A DNA stretch of 7,866 bases from a bacterium (GTDB lineage Bacteria; UBP15; UBA6099; DSWB01): positions 1 through 7,866 of the forward strand of contig JAGUYV010000300.1 in assembly GCA_020061125.1 (NCBI GenBank), written 5' to 3'. The notes under the pieces were generated by a model. The model did not search any database and had not been told where the DNA came from. It saw only the letters and a list, made by a program, of their open reading frames with translations. Below are positions 6,112 through 7,866 of the stretch, piece by piece; positions within the stretch are counted from its first letter, which is position 1; each line of letters starts with the position of its first letter. Made by a program: the position numbers and the translations under genes.

Positions 6112-6183
6112 GGGCGCATAGCTCAGCGGGAGAGCGCTTGCCTTACAAGCAAGATGTCACTGGTTCAAATCCAGTTGCGCCCA
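6112..6183 (+). tRNA. tRNA-Val (anticodon TAC)
   Basis: A complete cloverleaf of 72 bases can be drawn. The acceptor stem is GGGCGCA (6112-6118) with TGCGCCC (6176-6182), all seven pairs matched, and the discriminator is A6183. The D stem is GCTC/GAGC (6121-6124 and 6132-6135) with a GG-containing loop. The anticodon stem is CTTGC/GCAAG (6137-6141 and 6149-6153), and its loop CTTACAA gives anticodon TAC, which reads GTA and other GTN valine codons. The T stem is ACTGG/CCAGT (6159-6163 and 6171-6175) with loop TTCAAAT. The 3' CCA is not encoded (A is followed by TCG), so it must be added by nucleotidyltransferase. GC-rich chromosomal DNA lies to its left and AT-rich DNA begins directly at its 3' end. 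Confidence 0.97.
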
Positions 6184-6327
6184 TCGATAGAAAGTCACAT
6201 TACGCTCGTCGGCAGGAAGAATTTGCAGCCGCTTGTTGTTTCTTGTATGTCTTGTTCCCGATGGTAGGTTTATGATCCTTCAATTTCCATTACATCGTTG
6301 CCTTTTTGAACATGTGTTTGAGGCATT
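6184..6327. other. Gap between tRNA-Val and the mcrC stop, no gene seen
   Basis: These 144 bases are AT-rich and show no supportable gene on either strand, no convincing hairpin plus T-run, and no repeat of the tRNA 3' end. They start where the base composition changes and so form the likely left edge of acquired DNA. The short T-rich stretches near 6235 and 6302 are too weak to call as terminators for either the tRNA or the converging mcrC gene. Confidence 0.4.
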
Positions 6328-7710
6328 TTACTTTGTGATTGACAGTAGCGGAATTGATGGTATGAACACCGCTGTTTTGAATATCTCTTTAAATTCATCC
6401 TTCAAATCGTTTCGACTCTTTTGCATATCACGGCTCATATTAAGGAATTCGATTCTTATTTGTTTATTTTCATCGCCCTGCACGCAATATGTTTTTGCTG
6501 AAACACCAGATACCGCCGGGAAAAGCAGAATATTGTTGCTGCAGTTGTATCTATGGGCATAGGCAAATAACTGGTAAATATCTGCCTGAGAAATCCCGTT
6601 CTTTGAATCTTCTTGATCTGAGAGCAAATATTTCCATTTTGTATCCAATATAAAATGAGTGCCACCCCTGTCGTCATTAATCACAATATCCGGCTTCAGC
6701 CTAAACATTCCTAAAGCCTTTCCATTTGACATCTTCCTCGTCAGCAACCATTTCGCTTTTCCGGCGGCTTGTTTGTGAACGGTGCTTCTTTTTATATCAA
6801 AGTGACTGGAATACTTGTAGATAAATTCCGCCACAAAGTCTTCAAAAAGCCTATCCATCGGGAATAAGAGAGAGAAAGTCTTATTGTCCCCATAGCCGGG
6901 CGCTGGGCTACTGTCCATCAAAAATATTCGGCAGAACTCCAAAAGCGGTATGTACCTTTCGTTGCTTCTGGTTATCTGCACCTTGTCGAAATGGTACTCT
7001 TCGATCTCGAAATCCTCGACGAATTGAAAATATGCAAATGCCTTGAATATCAGATTCGCTACAGATTTCGTCTGTGTAATTTGCAGGAGTCTTTTGCAAG
7101 TCGCTTTCATGATACGGTTAAGCCATGTATCCGAAACATATTCATCGTATTTAATATATGAACGCTCTTTGTGGAACAAATTCTTTTTAATTTGTTCTTG
7201 AATCAGTATTTTTCCTTTTATAAAAAGGGAGTTCTCTTCCTGTGTCCTATACGCATGGTCAATCCCAATCACGAGTTCATCCAGCAGACGCCGTAAGAAA
7301 ATGCCAATAATCGCTTCGAGTAAAGGCATCTTATTAAGACGAAGAGGAGCAAGGTCTCTCTCCCGAATCGGGATTCGTCGTGATAATGACAACATGTATA
7401 GCAAGTTGTTCTGTGCCAAGTCCGCTTTACCATCATCTTCATAGATGAATTGTTTGTCGATTTTAGGCAGTATTTCCACTGTAAGACCTGGAATGTGAAC
7501 AACACCGACATAGTTCAAGGCACTGACATGCTTGATGTTGCTCCAGTCGAAAATCTGTATCCCATGATTCTGCCGTGCATGAGCACAGTCAAAAACTTTC
7601 AGCCTGTCTATCAGCTTCCGGTTTCCCTGCGTTATCGGGATTCTTCCAAATTCGGGTATCCTGACGATATCCACAGTATCCCCTTCAAGAAACAGCTTTC
7701 TCTCAATCAC
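6328..7710 (-). CDS. mcrC: McrC-type 5-methylcytosine restriction nuclease subunit
   Basis: 460 residues, somewhat longer than E. coli McrC (about 350) but usual for wider McrBC-family members. The C-terminal half carries the PD-(D/E)xK nuclease: PDIVIND (340-346, Asp341), LDTKWK (355-360; Asp356, Lys358) and QADIYQLFAYA (375-385), the Q-x-x-x-Y element typical of McrC. MDRLFEDFVAEFI (285-297, with Glu290) is the usual helix before it. The N-terminal 200 or so residues correspond to the McrB-contacting part. In McrBC, a hexameric McrB GTPase reads methylated DNA and McrC cuts it while stimulating GTP hydrolysis. The GTG start at 7710 overlaps the stop of an upstream frame by four bases (GTGA, 7707-7710), the usual translational coupling of mcrB and mcrC. 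The upstream frame is broken, however, so McrC may be expressed poorly and lack its partner. Codons are AT-rich, unlike the phosphorylase gene, so it is probably horizontally acquired. Confidence 0.9.
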   Translation of the reverse strand: MIERKLFLEGDTVDIVRIPEFGRIPITQGNRKLIDRLKVFDCAHARQNHGIQIFDWSNIKHVSALNYVGVVHIPGLTVEILPKIDKQFIYEDDGKADLAQNNLLYMLSLSRRIPIRERDLAPLRLNKMPLLEAIIGIFLRRLLDELVIGIDHAYRTQEENSLFIKGKILIQEQIKKNLFHKERSYIKYDEYVSDTWLNRIMKATCKRLLQITQTKSVANLIFKAFAYFQFVEDFEIEEYHFDKVQITRSNERYIPLLEFCRIFLMDSSPAPGYGDNKTFSLLFPMDRLFEDFVAEFIYKYSSHFDIKRSTVHKQAAGKAKWLLTRKMSNGKALGMFRLKPDIVINDDRGGTHFILDTKWKYLLSDQEDSKNGISQADIYQLFAYAHRYNCSNNILLFPAVSGVSAKTYCVQGDENKQIRIEFLNMSRDMQKSRNDLKDEFKEIFKTAVFIPSIPLLSITK

Positions 7711-7796
7711 TTTTCTTTTGATGAAAAGATGCCGTTAAAATAATCCACAAGCGCACCCTCATCCGCGTTATTGACATCTGCATAAGTAATGCAATA
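7707..7796 (-). pseudogene. 3' remnant of the gene upstream of mcrC, probably mcrB
   Basis: Reading the minus strand, a frame ends at TGA (7709-7707), overlapping the mcrC GTG by four bases. Its last residues are YADVNNADEGALVDY followed by FNGIFSSKEK. The frame is open only up to an in-frame TGA at 7826-7824, 38 codons in all, and has no ATG; a GTG near 7748 would give a 13-residue peptide. A complete mcrB would exceed 1 kb, so what remains is a fragment. The break lies next to the start of a transposase-like gene on the opposite strand, so I set the remnant's left end loosely at the TA dinucleotides at 7783, 7787 or 7795. The identity as mcrB rests on position and overlap; the peptide is too short to recognise by itself. 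Confidence 0.5.
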
Positions 7797-7800
7797 AACT
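7771..7800 (+). promoter_or_regulatory. Candidate promoter for the transposase-like gene
   Basis: A perfect TTGACA at 7771-7776 is followed after 18 bases by TAAACT (7795-7800), a four-of-six match to the -10 box. Transcription would begin near 7807, within the inverted repeat before the gene. The -35 box falls in the remnant of the interrupted gene rather than in the presumed transposon. Confidence 0.35.
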
Positions 7801-7828
7801 TGAGTAACGAGCTTGGAGGTTACTCAAG
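7799..7828. repeat. Perfect 10-base inverted repeat over the transposase ribosome-binding site
   Basis: CTTGAGTAAC (7799-7808) and GTTACTCAAG (7819-7828) are perfect reverse complements around a 10-base spacer. The Shine-Dalgarno sequence GGAGGT (7815-7820) lies in the spacer and first bases of the right arm, and the ATG follows directly at 7829. In RNA this would form a hairpin at the ribosome-binding site; in DNA it could be a binding site for the encoded protein. Confidence 0.7.
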
Positions 7829-7866
7829 ATGCGGCCCAATGGAACAGCCAAAGCACTGGAACAAAG
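7829..7866 (+). CDS. Start of a gene resembling an IS630-type transposase (partial)
   Basis: Only 12 codons fall in the window: MRPNGTAKALEQ, then the sequence ends. The start is well supported by GGAGGT at 7815-7820, eight bases upstream. The opening MRP-x-G-[ST]-x-x-x-LE- is what I remember from the N-terminus of many IS630-family transposases, where it precedes an arginine-rich stretch and a helix-turn-helix. These elements insert at TA. Its opposite orientation and its position against a broken gene fit an insertion sequence. With so few residues the family call is an inference. It could also be another helix-turn-helix protein or an IS with a similar start. Confidence 0.45.
   Translation, partial: MRPNGTAKALEQ

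Follow-up and report, generated by a model that had tools for sequence, protein, structure and literature searches.

An intact mcrC gene lies close to the end of the 7,866-base stretch of DNA analysed here (the window), with the mere tail of a partner gene before it, which raises the question of whether this is a nuclease without a partner or a restriction operon that has been broken apart, and in what state the system was left. The reading favoured here, at a probability of roughly 0.88, is that an insertion sequence (IS) of the IS630/Tc1-mariner type, present in several copies in the genome, recently inserted into an mcrB-mcrC operon, at a TA 20 codons short of where mcrB ends, leaving mcrB beyond the element, mcrC poorly expressed or not expressed, and restriction probably off or weak. 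The source genome is fragmented (513 contigs) and 78.8% complete. Because the window spans all 7866 bases of contig C485, position 7866 is an assembly end, so that the apparent cut at the right edge is a break in the assembly and not an end in the genome. The features of the locus are as follows.

6328-7710, minus strand: mcrC, intact and starting at GTG, coding for a 460-aa McrC-family PD-(D/E)XK nuclease subunit (PF10117 and motif alignment)
7707-7769, minus strand: remnant 3' end of the partner gene, almost certainly mcrB; last 20 codons NADEGALVDYFNGIFSSKEK plus stop, overlapping the mcrC start (translation; AAA-family gene at the same place in relatives)
7769-7770: TA dinucleotide at the insertion junction
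7771-7866, plus strand: left end of a multi-copy, putatively IS630/Tc1-mariner-like element, truncated where the contig stops (100% identical to the sequence that closes contig C242)
7771-7795, plus strand: 25-bp terminal inverted repeat of the left end (22/25 positions shared with the right end seen on contig C39)
7771-7800, plus strand: promoter-like site TTGACA-18-TAAACT that would serve the transposase, directed into the element and away from mcrC (consensus match only)
7799-7828, plus strand: perfect 10-bp stem immediately preceding the transposase ATG, its loop and 3' edge containing the GGAGG ribosome-binding site (RNA folding energy -14.2 kcal/mol, z = -1.9)
7829-7866, plus strand: start of a transposase-like frame, MRPNGTAKALEQ(R...), ATG after GGAGG

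An intact mcrC preceded by the end of a partner gene

The mcrC frame is open across 460 codons on the minus strand (7710-6328), without stop or frameshift, and a profile search matched it to almost the whole length of the Pfam McrBC model PF10117 (E = 2.4e-81, 273.6 bits, positions 3-318 of 318), in agreement with the initial annotation of an intact gene. The PD-(D/E)XK motif is kept, with KPDIVI...FILDTKWK aligning to the same motif in eight relatives. Against the E. coli McrC equivalog model the protein scores 123 bits, below the model cut-off of 338, and it is therefore a distant McrC. As had also been noted from the outset, the GTG start overlaps the upstream TGA as GTGA; mcrC has no good ribosome-binding site of its own (AAAAGAAAAGTG).

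The partner frame upstream of mcrC had been described as closed by a TGA after at most 38 codons, and another TGA is indeed found 38 codons before its stop. Only the last 20 codons of this frame are host sequence, the preceding codons lying inside the element described below. The remnant carries no damage, and its start coincides exactly with a TA. To place it, eight McrC relatives were compared, from six plasmids, one Marinilabiliaceae genome and one genome of the same order. An AAA-family (McrB) gene stands directly upstream of mcrC in 8/8, ending between -26 and +12 bases from the mcrC start, and an AAA_5 domain is carried by all seven of the upstream proteins that were scanned. On this ground of gene order the remnant can almost certainly be taken as the tail of mcrB, 20 residues being too short for homology proof. 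Between the end of the AAA_5 match and the C-terminus the relatives have 128-172 residues, of which the last 20 are not conserved, so an insertion at this point would spare the GTPase core. In the McrB of the same-order genome (G005, L030:157-2787) an EVE domain match separates the Walker A region from the remainder of the AAA domain, an unusual position for a modified-base reader.

The base composition of the window is uneven. Directly after a tRNA-Val (TAC) gene at 6112-6183, the G+C content falls at once from about 62-64% to 41% (6184-7768), with mcrC in the low part, and this stretch looks like an island acquired at the tRNA 3' end; a search of the bin for another copy of the tRNA-Val 3' end, as a second attachment site, gave no convincing one. 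A second low-G+C stretch (1600-2300, 36%) lies within DNA of 62-66% G+C and holds a 171-aa membrane-like open frame that gave no Pfam, NCBIfam or PADLOC match.

The contig ends inside a repeated, probably mobile element

The last 98 bases of the window (7769-7866) recur with 98/98 identity at the end of another contig of this genome, C242 (E = 1.7e-44). There the shared stretch forms the last 98-99 bases, and its left flank is a different, unrelated gene. C485 and C242 agree for exactly two bases, TA, to the left of the element and then diverge. A genome search with the first 17 bases of the element, allowing up to three mismatches, found one further contig, C39, with the match 80 bases from its start and in the opposite direction. 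C39 opens with 96 bases of the element, the outer 25 of which match the left end at 22 positions and are followed by TA, an inverted match reached in 0 of 100,000 shuffles. Each of the three junctions, two of them left and one right and all on different contigs, has a TA. The right end on C39 might belong to a related rather than an identical element. The other two junctions (L003:5380-6290 and L040:97-1320) lie in low-G+C (36-37%) accessory DNA, in or beside genes without NCBIfam matches, and all three junctions seen are in low-G+C accessory DNA.

All three contigs end 96-100 bases inside the element. Graph assemblers normally break on meeting real repeats, and C485 presumably stops where it does because this repeat, a mobile element, broke the assembly. 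The element interior and the far side of the mcrB insertion are absent from the 79%-complete genome bin.

On the strand opposite to mcrC, the initial annotation had placed a transposase-like gene with a strong ribosome-binding site at 7829, and GGAGG followed by an ATG is found there. The frame reads MRPNGTAKALEQR and is one residue longer (R) on C242; the 12-13 N-terminal residues visible are too short to classify. The TTGACA of the inward promoter-like site sits at the very end of the element, while a consensus scan between 7600 and 7866 gave no outward promoter-like site towards mcrC. The stem in front of the ATG may limit translation of the transposase from read-through transcripts.

The length of the terminal inverted repeat, the TA flanks and the inward transposase-like start are features of IS630/Tc1-mariner elements, to which the element is putatively assigned. 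The single DDE_3 match in the genome, on contig C432, falls below the curated cut-off, and C432 is uninterrupted and contains no repeat end of this kind. The DDE_3 elements found in order-level relatives lack these ends. No DNA match to the element ends was found in 40 other genomes, plasmids and viral contigs (the genome-contig and viral scans used an exact pattern), phages gave only a 25-base match at chance level, and the putative transposase C-terminus read from C39 had no match in plasmids. The element seems undescribed in the collections searched, although it belongs to a common kind.

These observations bear out the earlier proposal of an IS630-like insertion at a TA some 15-30 codons from the end of mcrB: the element end occurs again in unrelated DNA, TA is found at three junctions, the opposite end matches at 22/25, and the distance is 20 codons.

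Search for the body of mcrB

A search of the genome with AAA_5 returned 27 matches, and none of the 20/27 that were readable has the McrB-type DEINR or TMNT motif. Two McrB proteins used as queries matched nothing in the 79%-complete genome, and the mcrB body was not found on any binned contig by these searches or by reading the contigs. An intact mcrB elsewhere, which the initial annotation had set against its own reading, was likewise looked for by all three means and none was found. Given that the genome is 79% complete and the far-side contig is missing, absence of mcrB from the bin is not evidence of its loss. C39 was tried as the far side of the mcrB insertion and rejected, as it has no long minus-strand frame; for this reason it is probably another copy of the element, unless mcrB has been lost.

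Probable state of the interrupted system

The element has its left end towards mcrC, and the transposase would read away from mcrC and against mcrB. The rest of mcrB is expected beyond the element, lacking no more than the non-conserved tail; should the right end there resemble that on C39, McrB would exchange its last 20 residues for 17 element-encoded residues, IDLCKSNAMIKAKKAAA. Survival of mcrB beyond the element, with a short element-encoded tail of this sort, is the most likely outcome. Separated from mcrB, mcrC would lose the operon promoter and its translational coupling and would be poorly expressed or not expressed, and as a consequence restriction is probably off or weak. It is commonplace for an IS to land in a restriction gene. 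The system was probably silenced or weakened a short time ago, since mcrC is free of lesions and the copies of the element do not differ in their visible parts, an identity that is partly a condition of how the copies were found. McrC cuts only with full-length McrB and GTP hydrolysis (PMC3874153).

It is possible, if doubtful, that the interrupted system still works, with the McrB GTPase core kept behind a changed tail, McrC made from read-through transcription and the element only lowering expression. The 128-172 residues beyond the AAA_5 match in relatives, their unconserved last 20 and the undamaged 460 codons of mcrC agree with this. However, a whole element with an in-frame stop separates the two genes, its transposase gene is transcribed against mcrB, and the scan for an outward promoter-like site towards mcrC was negative. 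A deletion or rearrangement that joined the element to this site, with the body of mcrB gone and mcrC left as an orphan beside it, is unlikely. It would account for the failure to find a McrB-type GTPase in the genome, either among the readable AAA_5 matches or with the two McrB queries, but in this genome of 79% completeness the far-side contig is simply missing, and the undamaged remnant frame starting exactly at a TA is what a simple insertion leaves.

That the assembly falsely joined a repeat to the mcrC flank is very improbable. C485 does end one assembly word or so (99-100 bases) beyond the junction, where graph assemblies break, yet a break at a real repeat is normal for such assemblies, a false join would not set the terminal repeat exactly at a TA in three places, and the predicted opposite end was found independently on C39. 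On the preferred reading of an IS insertion into mcrB, the element might act as a reversible switch, cut-and-paste excision in part of the population restoring, or nearly restoring, mcrB and its coupling to mcrC and so giving a phase-variable defence, an idea to which a still slighter probability is given.

The lone intact nuclease gene at the contig end is explained, on the preferred reading, by a repeated mobile element and not by a new partnerless McrC system, and an apparently new IS630-like element is documented. It also serves as a warning that an 'orphan' mcrC in fragmented metagenome genomes can come from insertion sequences and assembly breaks.

Comparison with known systems

Type IV enzymes cleave only modified DNA, a property set by the N-terminal domain of McrB. 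Judged from its genes, the system is probably of McrBC type, and its placement as type IV or as a LlaJI-like relative hinges on the McrB recognition domain, which lies outside the window. As in EcoKMcrBC (type IV, PMC3874153), a McrC-family PD-(D/E)XK gene is directly preceded by a partner gene, although here the partner is visible only as its last 20 codons and the McrC is distant (123 bits against a cut-off of 338). LlaJI, which is McrBC-like and modification-blocked (PMC3874153), shares this McrBC-like organisation; the window shows no methyltransferase gene, and one could lie in the missing part. IS630/Tc1-mariner elements such as ISY100 are described as inserting at TA and as having inverted repeats some 24 bp long and a single transposase gene that reads inward; ISY100, a member of the IS630 family, has 24-bp imperfect inverted repeats and a duplicated TA (PMC2170065). 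The present element differs in being known from its ends alone, which have no DNA match in the collections searched beyond the 25-base chance-level phage match, but it has in common with ISY100 and the IS630 family the TA junctions, inverted repeats that are imperfect (24 bp in ISY100, 25 bp in the present element), a transposase-like frame that starts near the left end and reads inward, and several copies.
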